This document shows positions 41,763 through 62,197 of a stretch of DNA of 64,000 nucleotides, piece by piece. The translations under genes were made by a program, and so were the position numbers. The stretch comes from Candidatus Bathyarchaeota archaeon (GTDB lineage: Archaea > Thermoproteota > Bathyarchaeia > 40CM-2-53-6), in assembly GCA_005888745.1 (NCBI GenBank), contig VBBS01000030.1:1-64000 (forward strand), in the 5' to 3' direction. Numbering within the stretch: the stretch's first letter is position 1; each line of letters opens with the position of its first letter. The notes beneath the pieces were generated by a model. The model saw only the letters and a program-made list of their open reading frames with translations. It was not told where the DNA came from and did not search any database.

Positions 41763-44333
41763 CTAGGACAGTTCCTGCAAGGATATAGGGGCAATCTTCC
41801 GGTAAGCCTCGCCCGGGTTCAAGCGTCTTTCCTGAACAGTCAACAGAGTCTCGACAGATATTCCGAATAGCCGTTCGTTTTCCTCTAGGAATGGAAGGAT
41901 CAACTCCCAATCCTCCTTGGTGAAGTCCTCCAGCAGTCCTCCGTTCAGCTGCTTATCCGTAACCTTTCGATATGGATCACGAATGAATATCGCTCCACCT
42001 GAGGCCAGTGAGAACAGGTTGCTTCCCGGATACGGATATTCTTGTTCAACGAATTGTCCATCAAAGGATGGTTTCAATCCGTTGACAACGACAAACCCTC
42101 CGCCACTATGCGGGTCTCCAGCCATGAACGACTCTGCAAGATAATCCAAGCATGTTCCGTTAATCACTACTCTCGGCCTTCCTACTGCGTTGATCAGTGG
42201 GCGTCCTGCTGCGTTGCCCAGCACGTACACGTCACCGCCCTTTGCTGCGTACATGAATGCCTGGCCCACATCGCCGTGAACCACTAGCTTTCCGTACTTG
42301 AGAATCTGCGCGGCCTGGTCTTGAGCAGCCCCATGAACCGTGATCTCGCAGCCATCAATGCCTGAGGCGACGTAATCGCCGACATCTCCGTAGCAATCAA
42401 TCTTCAAGCCGTTCGTTCTTGGCCCTAGGCCGCTTCCGATGAATCTATGGCCTCGCAGGTTGTAGAGCAGAATGTTCTTCCAGCCTTGACCATACGCCTC
42501 GACAACGAACCTTGCAGCGCTCTCACTTCCTTCAGCCGGGAACTCTAGAGTATCAACAACTAGTACCTGTTCGTCCACCAGTGGATGGACCAATTTCGCT
42601 CTGTTCTTCCAATCCAACCGAGTATACAAATCATAGTTCGACATCGAGATAGAAGCGAAGACATCGTTCAATGCTTCGTGGTATAGTTGCAGTAGTGAGC
42701 TTCGTTTCTTTCTCCCTGTGTCGTAGATTCTGTCGTAGAGTAGTGAGAGTGCTTTTATCGCGAACTGTTGGGACTCTTGTCCCTTCATAGCCAGCCGTTT
42801 CAGCTCTTCAAGAATCTCCCCCACGTACTGGAAGCCAGCATCCTTCAACGCGGGACGAACATATTCATAGAATCCCAACGGGTCCTGCGTACCGGGACCC
42901 TTCTGCAGCTGAATCGCAATACTAGCGTTCAGAGAGACACTAGAACCCACATTCGGCAGCCAGTCCTGCTCCGGAAGCTCTATCGTCTTTCCAAACTTGT
43001 CAGCACACTCCAGTTCCTTCCCATCCTCACCATCTTTCACAGTAAAGAGGAATGCTCCACCATCCGTGAAGCTTCCACCCCTCGCATTCCAGTACGAATC
43101 CGCAAATCTACTTGGAATTTTCTGATCTTCCTGCAGCTTTCCTAGAACCGCATTGATCGCTTGTCTCTCTGACGCGATAATCCCGATCTTGACCGGACCC
43201 TCCTGAACGGCAAACACTTGCGGTCTCAGCATCGACGTATCAGTTATCCCGAGCAACTGCCACGCATTCCGCTCCACATCATTACGTGCAACAATGAAGA
43301 ACCATGGCCCATCAGGGGACCCGTGAATATGCGTCGACTGGATCAATCGATAGATCTTTTTCTTGTCCTCCGGCAGCATCTCAAAATCTCTCTCAGTTGT
43401 CGGTGCCAGAGCTTCGATCAGATACTCCAACGGATACTTGTAGACACGGCTGAGAAGGTCGAACAGTAACACAGAAACCTCCGTATCCGTCAAGAATAAC
43501 GGGTGAATGTTCCGCTGGGCCAGATACTCCATTATCGAATGATAATTCGCAAAATCACCATTATGCACCAACGCCTCGTGCAATCCAACGAACGGATGCG
43601 CACCGCCTGGATGCCAGACCCGGCCCTTCGTCGGATACCTATGATGACCAATCCAGACATGAGCCTTGAAATCCTCTAGACGGTAGTACCTGACAACATC
43701 ATCTCCATAACCCACCAGCTTCAATACAACCATGTTTTTCCCATGGCTGACGACGAAGGCCTTCTTCTCCCCCAGCGACGAGTAAAACTGCTGATTCAGT
43801 CGGTAAGAGTTCTGGTAAAGAAATTCATCCTCTACTTCGTTTTCCTTGAGCCCCTCTAAACCATTCTTATGAGCAAAATCCGCAAGAACGTCTCTCTTAA
43901 TTCTTACAAAGTACCTGAAAACCTGTGGCGGTTCCACCTCTAGACCCGGAACTGATCGATAGTCATCAACGGCATCCACTTTCCCCTCGTAGTCAACAAA
44001 AAAGAAAGGCCGAATGTGCTCGTCCTCGACCCGTTTTCTAACAGACCGATCCAGATACGCAACCTGCAATATGTAGTCCTCCTCCAGAATTTTCTTAGAG
44101 ACGCCTAGCTGTTCTGGGACCAGTCCGACAGCTGCAATCCCACCACCTTTCCCGTTTCCGCGGTTCCGCATCTGGACAAGAGATTGGAGGAGATATTTTC
44201 CTTCAAGTGGGGCGTTACATGCCAGGCCTACGACGCCGCATCCGCCCTCCGCCTCTTGGCTGCCGACCTGGATCCTTGATACTGGCAGTGATCTTCTTGA
44301 ATCAATAATCTGTTGTCCAGACAATGCTCTCAC
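41763..44333 (-). CDS. Glutamate synthase-like protein: class II glutamine amidotransferase fused to GXGXG domain
   Basis: 856 residues. A short propeptide of ~31 residues precedes the catalytic Cys32 (GGCGVVGLACN). The class II amidotransferase domain follows with GHHRYPTKG near 232-240 and ALVHNGDFANY near 259-269. Residues ~600-800 form the GXGXG beta-helix (GSGLGPRTNGLKI, HGDVGQAFMYAAKGG). The domain releases ammonia from glutamine and channels it to an FMN enzyme, here encoded separately upstream on the same strand. Archaeal split glutamate synthases use comparable parts; N-methylglutamate synthase is another possible relative. ATG at 44333. Confidence 0.85.
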   Translation of the reverse strand: MRALSGQQIIDSRRSLPVSRIQVGSQEAEGGCGVVGLACNAPLEGKYLLQSLVQMRNRGNGKGGGIAAVGLVPEQLGVSKKILEEDYILQVAYLDRSVRKRVEDEHIRPFFFVDYEGKVDAVDDYRSVPGLEVEPPQVFRYFVRIKRDVLADFAHKNGLEGLKENEVEDEFLYQNSYRLNQQFYSSLGEKKAFVVSHGKNMVVLKLVGYGDDVVRYYRLEDFKAHVWIGHHRYPTKGRVWHPGGAHPFVGLHEALVHNGDFANYHSIMEYLAQRNIHPLFLTDTEVSVLLFDLLSRVYKYPLEYLIEALAPTTERDFEMLPEDKKKIYRLIQSTHIHGSPDGPWFFIVARNDVERNAWQLLGITDTSMLRPQVFAVQEGPVKIGIIASERQAINAVLGKLQEDQKIPSRFADSYWNARGGSFTDGGAFLFTVKDGEDGKELECADKFGKTIELPEQDWLPNVGSSVSLNASIAIQLQKGPGTQDPLGFYEYVRPALKDAGFQYVGEILEELKRLAMKGQESQQFAIKALSLLYDRIYDTGRKKRSSLLQLYHEALNDVFASISMSNYDLYTRLDWKNRAKLVHPLVDEQVLVVDTLEFPAEGSESAARFVVEAYGQGWKNILLYNLRGHRFIGSGLGPRTNGLKIDCYGDVGDYVASGIDGCEITVHGAAQDQAAQILKYGKLVVHGDVGQAFMYAAKGGDVYVLGNAAGRPLINAVGRPRVVINGTCLDYLAESFMAGDPHSGGGFVVVNGLKPSFDGQFVEQEYPYPGSNLFSLASGGAIFIRDPYRKVTDKQLNGGLLEDFTKEDWELILPFLEENERLFGISVETLLTVQERRLNPGEAYRKIAPISLQELS

Positions 44334-44337
44334 CTGG

Positions 44338-44712
44338 TCACATCTTTTCCAGGATCGGTTGGAGGTCAGGCGGCCTCCAGTTCTTCGCCTTCAGTATCTT
44401 GCCGTTCGGGGCGCGGAGGACCCTGGGATCTCCCTTGCTCATGTTCGACTCATGAACCTCTCTGAAGATGGGTTCGAGATCGATTCCATAAGAGACGCCG
44501 GTTCCGTAGATGACATACAGGAGATCGGCGAGCGCATCGGCTATCTTGACTAGATTCTTATCGTTCGCCGCTTTCTCGAACTCTCCCTGTTCCTCACGGA
44601 TCAACTTTATCCTGAGTTCCCTAGTCGCTTCGTCTACAAGACCAGGGGAAGAACGGATGAAGACCCCGAACCGGCGGTGGAACTCCTTGGCCATCAGTTG
44701 TTCTGAATTCAT
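44338..44712 (-). CDS. MazG-type all-alpha NTP pyrophosphohydrolase
   Basis: 124 residues with the helical MazG/PRA-PH-like metal-binding residues: EEQGEFEKA near ~43-51 and KIADALADLLYVIYGTG near 61-77 (E..E and D..D pattern). The family cleaves nucleoside triphosphates or phosphoribosyl-ATP between phosphates. ATG 44712 overlaps the upstream stop by four bases and the gene ends four bases before the amidotransferase gene, so it is embedded in the glutamate-synthase-like operon. Why a pyrophosphohydrolase sits there is unclear; it may tie the pathway to nucleotide metabolism. Confidence 0.85.
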   Translation of the reverse strand: MNSEQLMAKEFHRRFGVFIRSSPGLVDEATRELRIKLIREEQGEFEKAANDKNLVKIADALADLLYVIYGTGVSYGIDLEPIFREVHESNMSKGDPRVLRAPNGKILKAKNWRPPDLQPILEKM

Positions 44713-45359
44713 TTGTACCGCACCAGCAGGTCTCTTCTTCCGCGAAGCTCTCGGACACTCTCCAGCCCGAAACCAGTCAATATGGATCTTAGCCGCTTCG
44801 ACCATGCAGTGAAGAGATTGACAATCCTCGTCTCCCCCCACTCAGGATCGACAAGTCGAGACAGTTCCGGGTCCGTCGTTGTTATCCCGACCTGGCAACC
44901 GCGTCCCCTCTCACAATTACCACAATGCGTGCAACCGACGGCCACCGCTTCAGCAGTCGCCACCACACAACCATCAGCACCCAATGCAATCGCTTTCGCT
45001 ACATCGTCAGCGGTCCTGATACCACCACTAGCTATCAACACAGTATCGTCCCGGACCCCTTCAGATTCTAGATAATCGTGGACCTTTGGAATCGCATACT
45101 CGATCGGCATTGCAATGTTCTTCTTCGCAATCTCCGGCGCCGCCCCCGTCCCGCCGTAGCCACCGTCGATATGGATGATGTTCGCGCCAGCATAGTAGCT
45201 CCCTATCGCCACCATGTCCACATCCGTCGGCGTGGACACTTTCACAGACACAAGCGCGCGAGGATTAACCGTCTTTATCCAGTCAACATGCTTCTTGTGA
45301 TCCTCCACCGAATAGGGAGTAAAGACTAGTAAACATTGATGACTCCCGCATCTTCGCAA
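44709..45359 (-). CDS. Glutamate synthase FMN/[3Fe-4S] subunit, C-terminal part after frameshift
   Basis: The frame continues the protein begun at 45969. It holds VNPRALVSVKVSTPTDVDMV, the FMN-binding IIHIDGGYGGTGAAP, IASGGIRTADDVAKAIALGAD, and a cysteine-rich cluster (VGCTHCGNCERGRGCQVGI, residues ~160-178) that would hold the iron-sulfur centre. A TIM-barrel split at this point cannot fold alone, so the gene is a fragment of one ~400-residue subunit. Its own apparent start has no ribosome-binding site. It overlaps the MazG gene by four bases. Confidence 0.75.
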   Translation of the reverse strand: MRRCGSHQCLLVFTPYSVEDHKKHVDWIKTVNPRALVSVKVSTPTDVDMVAIGSYYAGANIIHIDGGYGGTGAAPEIAKKNIAMPIEYAIPKVHDYLESEGVRDDTVLIASGGIRTADDVAKAIALGADGCVVATAEAVAVGCTHCGNCERGRGCQVGITTTDPELSRLVDPEWGETRIVNLFTAWSKRLRSILTGFGLESVRELRGRRDLLVRYK

Positions 45360-45969
45360 CCTCCGACGTGACCTTGTCCGCTAGTAAATGCCCGCCAAGA
45401 CCCGGCTTCGCTCCCTGCGCATACTTGAACTCGACAATCGGCGCGTACTGTATCGTCTCCTCCCGGACCCCGAACATGCCCGTCGCCACCTGTGTAATCA
45501 CATGATCACGATACGGAACAATAGCATCCGGATAACCACCCTCACCAGTAGACGTGTAGGTCCCGATCTTCTTCGCAGCCCGCGCCCTCGCGAGCATAAA
45601 GTTGAGAGAGATCGATCCAAAAGACATTCCCCCACCATAAATCGGCAAAGGAATCTCGATCTTCCGACCTTCCCCCCTCTTGTTCAGCGAGATTGAAAGG
45701 TCAACGCTATCCTGATCAACTTTCGGAAAACCGTTGTTCTTCCATCCGAGAACGTCAAAACCCCCACCCGAATCCCCAATCTTATACTCCAAACCGTTCT
45801 TCGGCAAATCCCCCGTCAACGCCATCGCGTAAGTCGCCAGAATCAGCTCCGCGGTCCAGCGCTTGTTTCCCAGCCCCGCCGGCAGACCGTGCCGCAAGGT
45901 CGGAAGAACCTCTAGCCCGTGATGGATTCTTTCCGAATGTTTTTCCACAATGAGTTCTATGTTGCCCAT
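45283..45969 (-). CDS. Glutamate synthase FMN subunit, N-terminal part before frameshift
   Basis: 228 residues. The first ~200 (EVLPTLRHGLPAGLGNKRWT, IPLPIYGGGMSFGSISL, STGEGGYPDAIVPYRD, EFKYAQGAKPGLGGHL) match the front of the FMN-binding glutamate synthase barrel. After KVTSEVAKMRE the frame runs into unrelated sequence and stops at 45283, while another frame picks up PYSVEDHKKHVDW. An indel near 45310-45345 separates the halves. It starts at ATG 45969, overlapping the upstream gene by 13 bases. Confidence 0.8.
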   Translation of the reverse strand: MGNIELIVEKHSERIHHGLEVLPTLRHGLPAGLGNKRWTAELILATYAMALTGDLPKNGLEYKIGDSGGGFDVLGWKNNGFPKVDQDSVDLSISLNKRGEGRKIEIPLPIYGGGMSFGSISLNFMLARARAAKKIGTYTSTGEGGYPDAIVPYRDHVITQVATGMFGVREETIQYAPIVEFKYAQGAKPGLGGHLLADKVTSEVAKMRESSMFTSLYSLFGGGSQEAC

Positions 45970-47345
45970 GCTATCCCCTTGAACGACTGCTCTCGCAGTT
46001 CCGCGTCCATCATCGACCGGCCAATATCCCCGCGCATCCGTCTAACATCGCGCATGCCCATCGCGCTGAGAATCTCGATCAATTGATCATGCCAAACCCC
46101 AAACAGATTCACAAGACGCTGCGCACCCCACGCTGGGTCAATTTTTTTTGGTTTCAGTTGACAGTTCGCTCTGTCCCGGGTCTCGCCCTGGAACTCTGCT
46201 TGTAAAGCCACGAGAACAGTTGTATCGATTCCGACAAGATCCGCGCCGCAGATGATCGCCTTCGGAACATGCTCCGCGAGAGTTATTCCTCCACTCGCAA
46301 TGATCGTGACCTGGTCCCTGAGTCCCTCTTTCACTAGCCGCTGGTGGACCTCTTTTAGCGAAGCCGAGACATGCTTGGTTTCCTTCGAATAATCCTGACC
46401 ATGATAATCAGCATACAAGTGCAACCCGTGCACTCCCTCTCGTGCCAGTTCGCATGCAACCGTTCCAGTGTCCTCCCGCAGAGGAATTCTCGCAATAACA
46501 ATTGAGGATGGAAGCCGGCTCGCCAGCTTCTCGAACAAATCTGATCTTTCAGCATGATATTCCACAACAGCCGGTTTCTTCTCTATCGATTCATCGAAGC
46601 TGTTCTCATCAACAATCGGAACGAGATTCCGGCCGAGGTCCCCCATCGTCTGGTCATGGGAAACAAACAAGGTCCCAAGCTTCTTCGATGCTATTCCGAC
46701 AGCCTCTCGAACACTCCTGTCTCCGGTAGGTAGTTCATCGAAGACTATCGGCACTGGAACCTCGACAGCGAGAGGACTACGATCTATCTTGCCAAAATCC
46801 ACGCTCGCAAGCTTTCCGCCAATATCAACACAGGTCGAAATATACTCGCGACCATAAACACCATCCCTGGTCGGACGGACAATCTCTGACATATCCGTCC
46901 AAATACCATCAAACCCCTTCCCACCGAACGCGCCCTTGTAGCCCATTCCCTTGACCGGAATCCTCGCGGTCGACGCCTCATTCCAGATGGTGAAGACCGC
47001 TTCCGGCGTCCAGAACGAATCACCCAGTCTCTTGTATTCTTCCGACTGTTTCACCGTCATAATGTGTGGATATTCCTGGACACACCTCATGCACCCGACA
47101 CACTTGTGTTTCAACGGCTTGAACCCGCCAAACCGCCCACCGAAAACCCCGTAGATGCAAGGCCTGCTGAGAACGACTTCCTTGTTGAGCTTGAACTCGA
47201 AAGCCTCATGCACCAACATCGCCGCAAGCCGGAGCTTACGCGCGCTCACATCAAACTTGTTCGGAATCTGATAGACATGTGGAGCCGGTTTAGTTTCTAT
47301 CTTGAAACGCTCATACTTAGAGGGCTTGGCGGTTTCAGAGTCCAA
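45957..47345 (-). CDS. Glutamate synthase FMN-domain paralogue with ferredoxin-like segment
   Basis: 462 residues. Near 77-90 is CVGCMRCVQEYPHI, three cysteines of a [4Fe-4S] ferredoxin motif with Tyr at the fourth position; C62 (RPCIYG) could complete it. The remainder is a glutamate-synthase-like TIM barrel (IIASGGITLAEHVPKAIICGAD), but the C-terminal iron-sulfur cysteines of the partner subunit are missing (DRANCQLKPKKIDP). It may deliver electrons to the partner. The start is TTG; the gene is the first of the operon. Confidence 0.8.
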   Translation of the reverse strand: MDSETAKPSKYERFKIETKPAPHVYQIPNKFDVSARKLRLAAMLVHEAFEFKLNKEVVLSRPCIYGVFGGRFGGFKPLKHKCVGCMRCVQEYPHIMTVKQSEEYKRLGDSFWTPEAVFTIWNEASTARIPVKGMGYKGAFGGKGFDGIWTDMSEIVRPTRDGVYGREYISTCVDIGGKLASVDFGKIDRSPLAVEVPVPIVFDELPTGDRSVREAVGIASKKLGTLFVSHDQTMGDLGRNLVPIVDENSFDESIEKKPAVVEYHAERSDLFEKLASRLPSSIVIARIPLREDTGTVACELAREGVHGLHLYADYHGQDYSKETKHVSASLKEVHQRLVKEGLRDQVTIIASGGITLAEHVPKAIICGADLVGIDTTVLVALQAEFQGETRDRANCQLKPKKIDPAWGAQRLVNLFGVWHDQLIEILSAMGMRDVRRMRGDIGRSMMDAELREQSFKGIAWAT

Positions 47346-47509
47346 GACCTAGCCTCACTATTGCCCTCTACAAACGCTCAGGAGAGGGGGAATATGCCGT
47401 ACAAATATAAGCTCTACGCGATTTGGACTAAACGTTTGTCCAGAAACTGCGGTCGAACCATCACATAAGCAAATTACGATCTGAAAGCTCGAAAGTGCTG
47501 AAGGCTTTC

Positions 47510-50382: not shown

Positions 50383-50730
50383 CCTCGCCTTGAACTGAAG
50401 CGGAGCTTCTTGCCTTCCGGGGATATCGGAAAATCTCTGGCACACGATGACATGCACAAACCATGATCGAAATCTTATCTGCAGTGACCAAACTCTAGGG
50501 TCGATAATTGGTAGAACGGTAGAGGCATTATCTATTTCTCCACCTATCCGCGAGATGGTCATCCACGTCTTTAGTACCTTGTTGCGTAAGTTTATTCTAT
50601 TGTGGGGCGAACGCGATAGTACTGTGGAGTCTTGCTCTAGGTTTCGATTGGCTTAACCTTCAACAGTAAACGTTGCTTATCCGGCGAGGACGGATAGCAA
50701 AACGGAGGAGAGACGGCCACGCGTTACATA
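50383..50730. other. Intergenic region before the intein-containing gene unit
   Basis: About 350 bases contain short frames on both strands without domain-like sequence or ribosome-binding sites. GGAGGAGA at 50703-50710 is a strong Shine-Dalgarno-like sequence lying 20 bases before the first good start codon, TTG 50731. A promoter for the downstream unit should lie here. Confidence 0.4.
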
Positions 50731-50940
50731 TTGACAGTTGACTTCGAAGAAGACAACGACATCGACAGTTTCATCCGGTTTGTCCAGTACCACACTAAAC
50801 GCTTGAAGTGTCCCAGCAAGGACGTGTTCATCCGGCTCGCTCACGAATGGGAAAAACAGCTGGTGAGCCACCCTGAGCCAAACAACGGCATTGGAATCAA
50901 GAAAGAGAAGAAAAAAACGCTCAAAGAACCATCCGAGTAA
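50731..50940 (+). CDS. Small hypothetical protein preceding the intein-containing gene
   Basis: 69 residues: acidic N-terminus (VDFEEDNDIDSFIRFVQYHT) and a Lys-rich C-terminus (IGIKKEKKKTLKEPSE). It starts with TTG, with GGAGGAGA some distance upstream. It overlaps the next gene by 50 bases in another frame. No homologue recognised; probable partner of the intein-bearing protein. Confidence 0.5.
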   Translation: MTVDFEEDNDIDSFIRFVQYHTKRLKCPSKDVFIRLAHEWEKQLVSHPEPNNGIGIKKEKKKTLKEPSE

Positions 50941-52267
50941 ATTCAAGATCCGGGTACGATACAAGTACCACTACTACCGCTGGATCAACACCCAAGACTA
51001 CGGCAGCTTCAAAGACATCTACGAAAAATACAAAGACCAAGGATACTCCTTCTGGTGTGTCCCAAAAGGAGACACTGTGTTCACCAATCCCGGAATACAA
51101 TCAATGGGTGAGCAACTAGACTCGATAGTATCCGCAAATGGAAATTACGAGCTTCCAACTCGATATTTTGAAAGAGATTATGCTGGAGACCTCGTCGTCG
51201 TAAAGCCTTTCCTCCTACCTGAGACGAGGCTAACTCCGGAACATCCAGTCCTATCGTGCGAATCAAATCCACAGAAATCAAAGTGGTACGATCCTCAGAC
51301 GAGACCGTTATTGAAAAAAACTTGGAAGTCCGCAGGAGAGTTAACTGAAAGAGATTGGGTCTTCTTCCCACTCTTCAAAGGCAACAGAGAGGGAGATCCC
51401 GAGCTCCTCTACCTCCTCGGCCTATACATGGCCGAAGGGTATCCCACAGGCAGTCAAGTGTACTTTGCACTGGGACACAAAGAACGACAACTGGCCGAGC
51501 ACATTCTTCAGATGGCGGAAAAGCACTGGAGCGTCAAGGGCACCATAAACAGTCACAGAAATGGACTGCTAGTACGCTTTTCCAAACCAGCTTTGGCCGA
51601 CTTCATGAGGAAAGAGTTCGGCAGCAGAGCAGTTAGTAAGAAGATCCCGTCGTGGATCATAGAACAACGCGATCCTCAACCCTTCCTCGAAGGATGGCTG
51701 AAGGGAGACGGCTTCAAGCGAGGAAATACGTGGAGACTCGCGACGTCATCCAAAACAGCCGCTTACCAGGCGCTGCTCATGGGTTCTCGGCTTGGCATTC
51801 TACCCGCCATTTACAAGGACCATAGAAAGAAACGAGGGATAATCCAAGGGCAAAAGGTCAACGCGAAGCCATCATACGAGATACGATTCCATCAAAACGG
51901 CAGCAAATACTCAAACGAGGCAAGTCACGTAGTAAGGACAGACAACGGCTTCTGGGTCAAGATAAACAACATACAGAGAGAAAAATTCTCGGGCAAAGTC
52001 TGCAATATGGAGACGCCTTCAAACACCTATCTTCTATCCTTCATCGTTCACAACTGTGCGGATTTGCCTCCGGAGTATTCTAGCCAGGATGGAACTTGGA
52101 CAGGCTACCGACTAGACGGCGACAAAACCCATACCGAATCCACTTTGAAAAGATACGGACGACATAAAGCGTGGATCGACACCAGCTACAAATTCGAGGG
52201 AAAAAACGTGATCCTAGTATACAACGCCGCGACAAAACGACATTCGAAATTGCTTAAGGATCAATAG
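50891..52267 (+). CDS. Unrecognised short host protein carrying a large intein
   Basis: 458 residues. Residues 56-388 are a complete intein (see separate entry), so the spliced product would have only ~125 residues: a basic N-extein of 55 residues ending in KYKDQGYSFW and a C-extein of 70 residues beginning CADLPPEYSSQDG. The joined sequence does not suggest a known family. Start TTG 50891 lies inside the preceding gene; the real N-terminus could be slightly later. Inteins usually occupy conserved replication or metabolic enzymes, so a short orphan host is unusual. Confidence 0.85.
   Translation: MESRKRRKKRSKNHPSKFKIRVRYKYHYYRWINTQDYGSFKDIYEKYKDQGYSFWCVPKGDTVFTNPGIQSMGEQLDSIVSANGNYELPTRYFERDYAGDLVVVKPFLLPETRLTPEHPVLSCESNPQKSKWYDPQTRPLLKKTWKSAGELTERDWVFFPLFKGNREGDPELLYLLGLYMAEGYPTGSQVYFALGHKERQLAEHILQMAEKHWSVKGTINSHRNGLLVRFSKPALADFMRKEFGSRAVSKKIPSWIIEQRDPQPFLEGWLKGDGFKRGNTWRLATSSKTAAYQALLMGSRLGILPAIYKDHRKKRGIIQGQKVNAKPSYEIRFHQNGSKYSNEASHVVRTDNGFWVKINNIQREKFSGKVCNMETPSNTYLLSFIVHNCADLPPEYSSQDGTWTGYRLDGDKTHTESTLKRYGRHKAWIDTSYKFEGKNVILVYNAATKRHSKLLKDQ
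51056..52054 (+). mobile_element. Intein with LAGLIDADG homing-endonuclease domain (residues 56-388)
   Basis: Block A is CVPKGDTVFTN with Cys1; block B is LTPEHPVLSC with the conserved TxxH-like histidine. Two dodecapeptides, LYLLGLYMAEGYP and LEGWLKGDGFKRG, mark the homing-endonuclease domain. Block F is FSGKVCNMETPSNTYLLSF and block G ends IVHN followed by Cys+1. All class 1 splicing residues are present, so protein splicing should be active. It is 333 residues long. Intein genes home by double-strand-break repair. Confidence 0.9.
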
Positions 52268-52451
52268 GGCCCTCACCTTTCTCTCACGTTTTCAGCTCTC
52301 TCTAACGGCTAAGTATTCTCTGCATTCTGGGGGGCCTCGTTTGAGGCGTTCTCTAGCTCTCAGCCGTACGAGAGGGAGAACCCAAGAGCAGTATGTATCG
52401 AGGCTTTGAGGGCAATTCAGCTTCTGCCCTAGGAGGAGTCGGTGAGGTCTG

Positions 52452-52877
52452 ATGAACAAGGCAAGATTAGAGAGAATCATCCGATCTCTTGCTTATCGCA
52501 AACCGATGTCATCTGAAGTCCGACCCAGACAAATTAGCGGGGCCCAGAAGACTGCTGCCGTACTATATTCAAAGATTGTGCCCGAACACAACGCGAAATT
52601 CGCCTCAAGAAGGAGGGAATTGCTTTCGAAAGGAGTTCAACTCATATACGTTGACCTAAAGGGGCATGAGAAACCAGATCTCACTTGGTTCGGTGGAAAG
52701 AGCATAGTCAGTGAGGACGTTAAGTCCACTGGGCACAAGTCAGATAGAAACGGAAATTATCGTGACTTGTTGCACCTCCATGGTAAGTTGCGGTTTCATA
52801 CTAGACGCGATTCATTTGCCTTGTCGTGTGAGAGCACGATTGACTCGATCCAAGAGGTTGCTCGTCACTACACGTGA
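52452..52877 (+). CDS. Putative PD-(D/E)xK nuclease-like protein
   Basis: 141 residues, ATG 52452 with GGTGAGG about seven bases before it. The core YVDLKGHEKPDLTWFGG then SEDVKSTGH contains PD and, ~14 residues later, DVK in the spacing of a PD-DxK nuclease motif. A basic N-terminal helix precedes it. This could be a Holliday-junction or restriction-type nuclease. It follows the intein-bearing gene by 184 bases in the same direction. The nuclease call rests on one motif. Confidence 0.5.
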   Translation: MNKARLERIIRSLAYRKPMSSEVRPRQISGAQKTAAVLYSKIVPEHNAKFASRRRELLSKGVQLIYVDLKGHEKPDLTWFGGKSIVSEDVKSTGHKSDRNGNYRDLLHLHGKLRFHTRRDSFALSCESTIDSIQEVARHYT

Positions 52878-58185: not shown

Positions 58186-58366
58186 ATGTTTCAAAAACCA
58201 TTGCACTCTACGGCGCATATATCCCGGGAGGATTTTCCGGGTTACACTACAAGTTTATACGATTCTGTACAAATCTCTTTAATTAGCGGACACGATGTTT
58301 GGGGGCTACTCCTGCAGTTCTCGGCTCCGAGGTACGGGGAAGAAGTATAGGAGTTAGGAAAGAACA

Positions 58367-61300
58367 ATGGAAATCCAACAAATACCGAAGGTTCCCCAAG
58401 GGGAATTCAGATACCCGAGATCATACACGAAACCCGGCATTCACCCATACGACGCGGTGAAATGGGAGACCAGAGACGCCGTCATAACCGACCACAAAGG
58501 ACAGACAATCTTCGAACAGAAGAACGTCGAAGTTCCCTCATTCTGGTCCCAAACAGCCACAAACATCGTCGCCTCAAAATACTTCCGCGGAAGACTCGGG
58601 ACCCCAGGAAGAGAAAGCAGCGCCAAACAACTCATAGGCCGCGTCGCAGGAACCATCGCCCGCTGGGGCCGAAAAGGAAACTACTTCCTCGATGAGGAGG
58701 AAGCTGAGACATTCGAGTCGGAACTCACACACATACTCCTCCACCAGATGGCCGCCTTCAACAGCCCCGTCTGGTTCAACGTCGGAGTCGAGGACCGCCC
58801 CCAATGCTCCGCCTGTCAACCATACGACGCGATGATAAGCACTCCATACGGCATGACTCCCATTGGCGACATCGTATCACACAACCTCCTAGGGCTGCCG
58901 GTTTATGATTCCCACGGGATCACTATAGTAACAGGTGTGAAGCAAAATGGAGTCAAGAAAGTATATCGGATTACAGTATCCAACGGAATCTCAGTCGATG
59001 TCACAGCAGACCACGTTGTACTTGCCTCATCCCAAAGACGAACCGCAGGGACTTGGCAGCGTGTCGATGAGCTAAAGATAGGCGCGAAGTTACAACTTCA
59101 CGCACATAAAGGAATAGAAGCATCCAGACCCAAATTCAACGGAAATATTAATGATCTCGTCCCTGAGGACGAGGCGGCCCTTGCTGGCTGGCGTCAATCT
59201 GACGGATTCGTAGGCCAGTACCAGAGTGGAACTAACAGGTCGATGACCCTTGAATTCGAGACAGCGAACCAAGAATACGATTTCGTGCTAGGCAAGGTAA
59301 ATAGGGTCTTTCAGAACGCTCATTACAATGTAACCCCAGTCAAAGTCAAGAGTCCAGATCTCAACTATAGGAGGGTGAGGACGTACGGTGAGACACCAGC
59401 ACCCTTCGTAACGAAATACAATCTTCTCAACAGAGGGACAGCGATGCAAGCTCACAAGAATCTGGTTGGAGCGAGCAAAGAGGCCATTGTCGAATACCTG
59501 AGAAGTCTCTTTCAGGCTGAGGGATACGTAGCCCTGTCTTCAAACAGCAAGAGTTCTCGCGTCGGTTTCGCCGTGATCAGTAGGTCGCTGGCCAGAGACG
59601 TTCAACGGTTGTTGCTTTGCTTGGGAATCTACAGCAGACTCCGTATGAAGAAAGAGAAGAGGCCCGATAGATATGATCTCTGGGAGGTCGACATAAGCAT
59701 AGGAAGTGAAAGAAAGAAGTTTTCAGAGCTGATTGGTTTCATCAGCACTCGCAAACAAGAACGCCTGCAAGACTCTCTGAAGAACCCGGGCAAGAACTGT
59801 CCGGACGTCCGATGGGAAACCATAGTTTCGATCGAAGAACTCGGAGAAAAGCCCGTCTACGACATACAAACACTGAGCGGTCAATACCTCTCGGAGAACA
59901 TCGTCGTACACAATTGCTTCATCAATTCCGTCCAGGACGATATGCGTTCGATAATGCAGCTCGCCCAGACGGAAGGCATGCTATTCAAATTCGGGTCGGG
60001 AACCGGGTCAAATCTTTCATCTTTGCGATCGTCAAAGGAGCACTTGTCGACTGGGGGAAAGGCGAGTGGTCCTGTTTCGTTCATGAAGGGTTTCGATGCG
60101 TTCGCAGGTGTGATAAAATCCGGTGGACGGACTCGTCGTGCGGCGAAGATGGTTATTCTCAACGTTGACCATCCTGATATTGAGGAGTTCATCTGGTCGA
60201 AGGCGAAGGAGGAGAAGAAGGCTTGGGCCCTAATCGACGCAGGCTATGACGGTGCCGTTGATGGAGAGGCCTACGGCTCCATTTTCTTCCAGAACGCGAA
60301 CCACAGCGTCCGTGTCACCGACGAGTTCATGCACGCAGTAACGGAGGACAAGGAATGGAAGACCCGGTACATCACCAATCACCAAGTAGCAGAGGTCTAC
60401 AAGGCCCGGAACCTGATGAGAGAGATGGCCGAGGCGGCCTATATCTGCGGCGATCCTGGAATCCAGTTCGACACAATAGTCAACAAATGGCACCCGTGTC
60501 CGAACACGAACCGGATCAACGCGTCCAACCCGTGTTCAGAGTACATGTTTCTCGACGACTCCGCATGCAACCTCGCGTCCCTCAACCTCATGAAGTTTAG
60601 AACGGTAGACGGCGAGTTCGACGTTGAATCCTTCGAACATGCAGTCGAGATCGTGATCACCGCCCAAGAGATCCTCGTTAGCAACGCAGGCTATCCCACT
60701 CCAGCCATCGAGAAGAACAGCCACGATTTTCGTCCCCTCGGACTTGGCTACGCAAACCTAGGCGCCCTCCTGATGGCGCGCGGCCTCCCGTACGACAGCG
60801 ACGAAGGCCGAAACTACGCCGCCGCCATATCCGCCCTAATGTCCGGTCGAGCTTACGCCGCATCCGCCCGCATCGCCAAAAGGCAAGGCCCATTCAAGGG
60901 ATATTCTGTGAACGAGAAACCTTTCCTCAACGTTATCGACATGCACAGGGCCCACGCGTACAAGATTCCTGCTGAGGGAATTTCTGACGAACTCTTGAAA
61001 GCTGCTCTCAAGTCTTGGGATGACGCTCTCTCGTTAGGCGAGAGATTCGGATTCAAGAACGCGCAGATATCAGTGATCGCCCCAACGGGAACGATCGCGT
61101 TCATGATGGACTGCGATACCACCGGTATAGAGCCCGACATTGCCCTGGTCAAATACAAGTGGCTTGTTGGAGGCGGGGTGATCAAGATCGTCAACAATAC
61201 CGTTCCCGAAGCGCTAACAAAGCTTGGCTATTCGAAGACCGAGGCCAGCGAGATTCTCAAGTACCTCGAAGACCACGACACAATAGAAGGCGCGCCTCAT

Positions 61301-62197
61301 CTCAAGCCAGGCCACCTTCCAGTCTTTGATTGCGCGTTCAAACCTGCAAAGGGTACGAGAAGCATACACTATATGGGTCATGTGAAGATGATGGCCGCTG
61401 TTCAGCCCTTCATCTCTGGAGCAATTTCCAAGACAGTGAACATGCCTGGCAACGTCTCGGTGGACGAAATCGTCGAGACCTACATTACTGTCTACCGTGA
61501 CGGCTCCAAGAGAACCCAGCCCCTGACCACAACCATTCAGGACAAGGGCAAAGCTGCCGAGAAGACTAAGGAGCAAGTGGTCTTCAAGCCATTCCGACGC
61601 CGCCTCCCGGAAGAGAGAGAGGCGATAATACACAAGTTCTCGATCGCCCAGAACGAAGGCTACCTCATGGTCGGCCTCTACGATGACAATACTCCCGGTG
61701 AAATATTTGTGGTTATGTCGAAGGAGGGAAGCACTATCTCGGGATTGATGGACGCGTTCTCAACTTCAATTTCCCTCGCCCTACAGTACGGCGTCCCATT
61801 GAAGGTGCTTGTGAACAAGTTCACCCATACACGATTCGAGCCAGCAGGCATTACTACCAACCAGGAAATTCGATTCGCAAAGTCCGTAGTCGATTACATT
61901 TTCCGATGGCTCGGCCTGAAGTTCCTTCCAAAAGAGGAACAGGAGGCGCTCGGGCTTGCGAGGACAACCCTGGAGAACGGGACGCAGGTAAAACTGGTTG
62001 AGCCAGTTGGTTCAAGGGCCGCGGCGCCGATAGTTTCAGAGATCAATGCTCGAGATGCTCCTGAGCTTGCGACCCCCCTAGCGAGCTTCGACAACCAATC
62101 CGACGCACCTGCATGTGAGAACTGCGGCATGATCATGGTCCGGGCAGGGTCGTGCTACAAGTGCAATAACTGCGGCAACACTAGCGGTTGCGGATGA
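58367..62197 (+). CDS. nrdJ: Adenosylcobalamin-dependent (class II) ribonucleotide reductase with intein
   Basis: 1276 residues, ~909 after intein removal. Class II RNR makes deoxynucleotides using a B12-generated thiyl radical. Extein motifs: the intein interrupts PQCSA/CFINSVQDD, the active-site cysteine region; NPCSEYMFLDDSACNLAS holds the NPCSE redox loop; VIAPTGTIAFMMDCDTTGIEP is the PTGT/active-site loop; a zinc-binding tail (CENCG...CYKCNNCG) ends the protein. The C-terminal Cys pair regenerates the enzyme. ATG 58367. It indicates a need for cobalamin; no vitamin B12 genes are in the window. Confidence 0.97.
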   Translation: MEIQQIPKVPQGEFRYPRSYTKPGIHPYDAVKWETRDAVITDHKGQTIFEQKNVEVPSFWSQTATNIVASKYFRGRLGTPGRESSAKQLIGRVAGTIARWGRKGNYFLDEEEAETFESELTHILLHQMAAFNSPVWFNVGVEDRPQCSACQPYDAMISTPYGMTPIGDIVSHNLLGLPVYDSHGITIVTGVKQNGVKKVYRITVSNGISVDVTADHVVLASSQRRTAGTWQRVDELKIGAKLQLHAHKGIEASRPKFNGNINDLVPEDEAALAGWRQSDGFVGQYQSGTNRSMTLEFETANQEYDFVLGKVNRVFQNAHYNVTPVKVKSPDLNYRRVRTYGETPAPFVTKYNLLNRGTAMQAHKNLVGASKEAIVEYLRSLFQAEGYVALSSNSKSSRVGFAVISRSLARDVQRLLLCLGIYSRLRMKKEKRPDRYDLWEVDISIGSERKKFSELIGFISTRKQERLQDSLKNPGKNCPDVRWETIVSIEELGEKPVYDIQTLSGQYLSENIVVHNCFINSVQDDMRSIMQLAQTEGMLFKFGSGTGSNLSSLRSSKEHLSTGGKASGPVSFMKGFDAFAGVIKSGGRTRRAAKMVILNVDHPDIEEFIWSKAKEEKKAWALIDAGYDGAVDGEAYGSIFFQNANHSVRVTDEFMHAVTEDKEWKTRYITNHQVAEVYKARNLMREMAEAAYICGDPGIQFDTIVNKWHPCPNTNRINASNPCSEYMFLDDSACNLASLNLMKFRTVDGEFDVESFEHAVEIVITAQEILVSNAGYPTPAIEKNSHDFRPLGLGYANLGALLMARGLPYDSDEGRNYAAAISALMSGRAYAASARIAKRQGPFKGYSVNEKPFLNVIDMHRAHAYKIPAEGISDELLKAALKSWDDALSLGERFGFKNAQISVIAPTGTIAFMMDCDTTGIEPDIALVKYKWLVGGGVIKIVNNTVPEALTKLGYSKTEASEILKYLEDHDTIEGAPHLKPGHLPVFDCAFKPAKGTRSIHYMGHVKMMAAVQPFISGAISKTVNMPGNVSVDEIVETYITVYRDGSKRTQPLTTTIQDKGKAAEKTKEQVVFKPFRRRLPEEREAIIHKFSIAQNEGYLMVGLYDDNTPGEIFVVMSKEGSTISGLMDAFSTSISLALQYGVPLKVLVNKFTHTRFEPAGITTNQEIRFAKSVVDYIFRWLGLKFLPKEEQEALGLARTTLENGTQVKLVEPVGSRAAAPIVSEINARDAPELATPLASFDNQSDAPACENCGMIMVRAGSCYKCNNCGNTSGCG
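58814..59914 (+). mobile_element. NrdJ intein with homing-endonuclease domain (residues 150-516)
   Basis: 367 residues. Block A is CQPYDAMISTPYG with Cys1; block B is VDVTADHVVLAS with a conserved His; the endonuclease dodecapeptides read ALAGWRQSDGF and LRSLFQAEGYVAL; block G is SENIVVHN followed by Cys+1. Splicing would restore PQCSACFINSVQ, the RNR active-site cysteine sequence. In the second dodecapeptide the usual Asp is Glu, so endonuclease activity may be reduced while splicing should remain. Confidence 0.92.

Follow-up and report, generated by a model that had tools for sequence, protein, structure and literature searches.

An apparently mobile class 1 LAGLIDADG intein in a small orphan gene restricted to one family of soil Bathyarchaeia

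How does a complete intein come to persist in a gene for a short protein that resembles no known family? Inteins have usually been reported from ancient, widely conserved enzymes, and about two thirds of those in archaea lie in proteins of DNA replication, recombination and repair (PMC5874633). The locus considered here lies in a stretch of 64,000 nucleotides of a Candidatus Bathyarchaeota archaeon contig (VBBS01000030.1, assembly GCA_005888745.1), referred to below as the window. The favoured reading, with a probability of roughly 0.9, is that a homing-competent class 1 LAGLIDADG intein sits at codon W|C in a small gene (the host) that is conserved and restricted to one family, and that this intein is mobile. 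The features of the locus are as follows.

50615..50658, + strand: conserved upstream element (GATAGTACTGTGGA and GGTTTCGATTGGCTTAAC), kept in 15 genomes, which the sequence further upstream is not
50731..50940, + strand: small gene 'up', overlapping the host out of frame; 73 codons in relatives; dN/dS well below 1
50891-52267, + strand: intein-bearing ORF, 458 aa, with TTG as start codon
50891..51055, + strand: N-extein, 55 aa in the window and 62 aa where an upstream ATG is used, with a basic N-terminal tail and the end ...YSFW
51056..52054, + strand: class 1 intein with a LAGLIDADG homing endonuclease domain, 333 aa, missing at this site in genomes G003, G009 and G012
51233..51244, + strand: block B TPEH (intein T60-H63), unchanged across 11 copies
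51404..51439, + strand: first LAGLIDADG motif LLYLLGLYMAEG, with E127 (G in genome G015)
51680..51712, + strand: second LAGLIDADG motif PFLEGWLKGDG, with D218
52055..52267, + strand: C-extein, 70 aa, from C+1 ADLPPE through the stop
52431..52736, + strand: decayed C-terminal remnant of an endonuclease-like ORF that is intact in genomes G015 and G016

The intein is inserted between W and CADLPPE, and once the residues encoded by 51056-52054 are removed, the spliced host has 55 + 70 = 125 aa. The original prediction of a complete 333-residue intein holds: all class 1 splicing residues (C1, T60-P-E-H63, H332, N333 and C+1) were found, and they are identical in 11 complete copies. Blocks F and G read VCNMETPSNTYLLSFIVHN, with C+1 directly after them. 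The acidic residues of both LAGLIDADG motifs (GLYMAEG and WLKGDG) are in place in the window; E127 is lost in G015 only, and the remaining complete inteins keep both residues. Pfam LAGLIDADG_3 (PF14528) matches the intein in two stretches (E=2.9e-9), and the Pfam Intein_splicing model gives no match to it. The AlphaFold model of the whole precursor (pLDDT 40) is too poor for use on the Hint fold. The dN/dS of the intein, calculated for eight of the 11 complete copies, is about 0.07, and the splicing and endonuclease parts have similar values (about 0.06), which indicates purifying selection on both.

When 151 genomes were searched with the joined exteins, the gene turned up in 15, every one in the window's own family of soil Bathyarchaeia. 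In 12 of them, the window's included and three genera of the family represented, the intein sits at the same codon; 11 of these copies are complete, with an invariant length of 333 aa, and the twelfth (G014) is split over two contigs and was left out of the 11. The intein-free alleles that were sought at the same insertion point are present in G003, G009 and G012, where W|CADLPPE is intact and the gene encodes 122-126 aa from ATG in an uninterrupted frame of 124-128 codons from stop to stop. A further 6 genomes of the family gave no host match; their completeness is 52-87% and one carries a truncated 'up', so the absence is uncertain. Because three genomes have uninterrupted genes, the 11 copies share length and codon, and dN/dS is low, the comparison of sequences confirms a genuine class 1 LAGLIDADG intein within the ORF 50891-52267, as opposed to a chance ORF.

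The TTG start of the host gene is plausible since the same codon is ATG in G013, G015 and G016. For both genes, the ATG from which relatives start is altered in the window's clade, to ACG for 'up' (50722-50733) and to CTG for the host (50873-50893); therefore, both probably begin at downstream TTG or ATG codons. The gene 'up' is kept in every genome with the host and has no match in family and structure libraries. The upstream element at 50615..50658 is a possible promoter of both genes. The locus is syntenic, with divergent glutamate-synthase-type genes upstream and an MFS transporter gene downstream. In the glutamate synthase region (41766-47348), the enzyme is encoded by several separate minus-strand genes, which diverge from 'up' and the host.

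As for the host protein, a spliced form of about 125 residues belonging to no known family had been expected, and this proved correct: the 125-aa sequence has no relative in Pfam, NCBIfam, PHROGs or PDB sequences. Its AlphaFold model (pLDDT 68.6) is of alpha/beta type, and Foldseek found no fold match for this model in the PDB at E<=0.001. No catalytic signature was found in the host. Outside its own family, the host was not detected among 398 sampled genomes of the phylum, nor were relatives found in viral contigs or in phage and plasmid collections; profiles of the host and 'up' gave nothing convincing outside the family, the matches at E 0.003-0.1 being short and scattered. A viral or plasmid origin of the host gene was ruled out by this lack of viral, phage and plasmid relatives and by the chromosomal, syntenic locus. 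A larger protein split by frameshifts was also ruled out, as the relatives are complete, stand-alone ORFs of about 123 aa with their own stops at a syntenic chromosomal locus. On these sequence searches, the host is a lineage-specific, family-restricted orphan gene and not a widely conserved core enzyme; the argument that an intein marks an essential enzyme, and that the host should be one, is not supported.

Members of the host family are approximately 74-88% identical to the first aligned sequence, with invariant runs at residues 26-34, 62-69, 76-89 and 91-100. The intein is inserted between residues 62 and 63, where the more invariant half of the host begins, and thereby borders the most conserved block of the protein, a position general for inteins. 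The site is invariant in relatives, so the case of an intein in a random non-conserved ORF did not occur. The suggestion that YSFW/CADLPPE marks a conserved active site is borne out as to conservation, and beyond conservation the active site found no support. An unrecognised enzyme with W|CADLPPE as its active site and Cys63 as a catalytic or metal-binding residue is unlikely. It would account for the invariant runs from residue 62 onward and for a Cys63 that is unchanged in empty and occupied alleles, and a Cys also follows two further inteins encoded in this genome, those of endonuclease IV and a 4Fe-4S protein. However, splicing itself needs Cys+1, so that any site open to an intein should show a conserved Cys, and neither the lack of a family or fold match nor the family-restricted distribution fits an enzyme of this kind. 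We tentatively suggest instead, as a weak inference, that the host may be a small protein that associates with nucleic acid or the ribosome and is produced along with the overlapping 'up', since it has a basic N-terminal tail and shares the conserved upstream element with 'up'.

The distribution of the intein was compared with the rpoB tree. Two of the empty genomes are sisters of occupied ones (G003 of G008, and G009 of G017), G012 is also empty, and at least three changes are needed to explain the presence of the intein on this tree; the empty alleles may represent losses or gains still to come. G013 and G015 are sisters in the rpoB tree, and their inteins are not (AU p=0.023). That the genus g1 inteins form a single clade apart from the G018 and G020 inteins was likewise rejected (AU p=0.026); a grouping that unites the clade A inteins and leaves out G020 was not rejected (AU p=0.36).

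Further signs of movement were obtained by comparing G013 with G015. Up to the insertion, the two sequences are 88-99% identical, with six mismatches between -457 and -12; identity then falls no more than about 10 nt from the insertion point, to roughly one mismatch per 8 nt through the intein. After the intein, an unalignable stretch is followed by 97-100% identity from about 2 kb downstream. This divergent tract spans the intein, the C-extein and the downstream ORF, and for its 3' part in G015, including the downstream ORF, G016 is nearest (86%). Such a tract would be expected from the repair of an endonuclease cut at the insertion site, with the reservation that the genomes are metagenome-assembled and strain mixing could distort tracts. 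Co-conversion of flanks during intein homing has been described for haloarchaeal MCM inteins (PMC10643990).

The intein appears to be still mobile, with lateral movement into empty alleles, because sister genomes differ, the intein tree conflicts with rpoB and the G015/G013 tract is present. In the proposed sequence of events, the precursor would be translated and the intein (C1, TxxH, H332-N333, C+1) would excise itself and join the exteins into the protein of about 125 aa, a step that we infer from the residues and the empty alleles. After DNA exchange between related cells, the endonuclease of the intein probably cleaves the corresponding site in empty alleles, and repair would copy the intein and its 3' flank into the cut allele; these homing steps are supported by the same tract, sister genomes and tree conflict. 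Alternatively, the intein might be an immobile, vertically inherited relic, the empty genomes having arisen by independent precise losses through recombination. The occupancy of most gene-bearing genomes across three genera would agree with this, and losses alone could yield the pattern on the rpoB tree. Such a history is nevertheless improbable, given the 5' edge of the G013/G015 tract at the insertion site, the conflict between the trees and an endonuclease constrained as much as the splicing domain.

A possible helper of homing is the downstream endonuclease-like ORF. It is intact in G015 (L024:7911-8477) and G016 (L025:2631-3197), where it encodes about 190-200 aa 3' of the host; it is decayed in G018 and in the window, and was found in none of the rest of the 61 genomes. 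Both its PWNKGLK stretch and its PD...EDIK pattern resemble, as we assume, NUMOD3 and PD-(D/E)XK nucleases, and Pfam and PHROG searches gave no match to these or to any nuclease. In phage T4, a free-standing endonuclease helps a neighbouring element, whose own endonuclease is defunct, to home in trans (mobE and I-TevIII; cited in PMC10643990). The present situation is similar in that a nuclease-like ORF lies beside the mobile element and apparently moved with it; unlike the T4 case, the present intein has its own, mostly intact endonuclease, and the ORF is a putative nuclease. Homing driven in trans by this ORF rather than by the LAGLIDADG domain would be in line with its position directly downstream, its limitation to intein-bearing genomes and to this locus, and its travel with the intein in G015, whose E127 is lost. 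This possibility is nonetheless very remote, as the ORF is intact in 2 of the 12 intein-bearing genomes, no Pfam or PHROG match speaks for a nuclease, and inteins other than that of G015 retain both acidic residues.

Unexpected conservation was noted in the 5' half of the host gene. Among codons for the same residue in clade A, synonymous differences amount to 4% in the N-extein; the corresponding figures are 44% for the C-extein, 33% for the intein, 38% for rpoB and 29% for EF-1A. The last 38 N-extein codons, which 'up' does not overlap, give 5%, and 0 of 520 equal-length windows of five other genes are as low, although these windows overlap and the genomes are related, so that this is not a formal probability. 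The near-frozen stretch in clade A (50731-51055, the end of 'up' and the N-extein) stops at the insertion point of the intein. In clade B, which includes intein-free genomes, the effect is weaker (17% in the N-extein vs 54% in the C-extein; 5 of 546 windows as low), and therefore the freeze is independent of the intein. Co-conversion of the 5' flank as its cause was ruled out, the intein being far more diverged than the flank. A third overlapping frame was rejected since conserved stops interrupt most other frames; one forward frame does stay open over the roughly 43 codons before the insertion point, and it reads as low complexity.

The low synonymous difference, together with a conserved block that extends from the upstream element as far as the insertion point and is also present, though weaker, in intein-free genomes, would suit a functional element at the nucleotide level (RNA or DNA) formed by 'up' and the N-extein segment, with the intein at its 3' edge. 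We regard this as rather doubtful. The frozen segment has no Rfam match, its folding energy is ordinary (z=0.25) and there is almost no compensatory change, so that an RNA element was rejected on all three counts. In addition, where its codons end in a pyrimidine, that base is almost always C, a pattern shared with some ribosomal protein genes, and codon selection may contribute; high expression may play a part, yet EF-1A is not frozen likewise. A more elaborate version, which we consider improbable, is that the intein and its companion downstream endonuclease are specialised on such an element, synonymous constraint rather than enzyme essentiality keeping the target available.

Among known systems, archaeal class 1 LAGLIDADG inteins (PI-PkoII, PDB 2cw7; haloarchaeal MCM and PolB) have C1, TxxH, HN|C and two LAGLIDADG motifs in common with this one; like it, they lie in conserved regions, are patchily distributed and show signs of homing (PMC10643990, PMC4071816). 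In contrast to these, the host here is a family-restricted orphan of about 125 aa, and the similarity to PI-PkoII is slight (profile E=0.0037). Inteins of phage DNA methyltransferase and thymidylate synthase align over the full length (1-333) with 22-25% identity and differ in their phage hosts and insertion sites; no near relative of the intein was found in phages or plasmids. The intein is ordinary in kind and unusual in its host. The part of the open-access full-text literature that was covered for Bathyarchaeota/Bathyarchaeia inteins contains no report of this allele, and the allele and its orphan host are likely new. The persistence of a homing-competent intein in a gene of one family suggests that an invariant target site suffices and a universal enzyme is not required. 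The empty and occupied sister alleles, with the conversion tract, preserve in these uncultured soil archaea a natural trace of intein homing, and the intein flags an unannotated, strongly constrained two-gene unit ('up' and the host).

The window's genome is rich in inteins, which were found in MCM, a Hel308-like helicase, class II ribonucleotide reductase, endonuclease IV and a 4Fe-4S protein; further loci match the splicing model. Those in the five named proteins are also of the LAGLIDADG type, and their hosts differ from the present one in being other, widely known proteins. The ribonucleotide reductase gene, located in the window at 58358-62194, carries a second, unrelated LAGLIDADG intein with a Pfam Intein_splicing match; descent of the host's intein from this one, 6 kb away, was rejected for want of usable similarity. 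The nearest intein found in the genome is that of endonuclease IV (AP_endonuc_2, L089:1496-3472; E=6e-26). This intein and that of the NuoI-like 4Fe-4S protein (L090:1752-3344) each sit before a conserved Cys, and both proteins are, to our knowledge, unusual intein hosts. An intein is also probable in EF-2, because the frames reach about 1060-1275 aa in several genomes (L141 and other loci), compared with 731 aa in G003 and G012.
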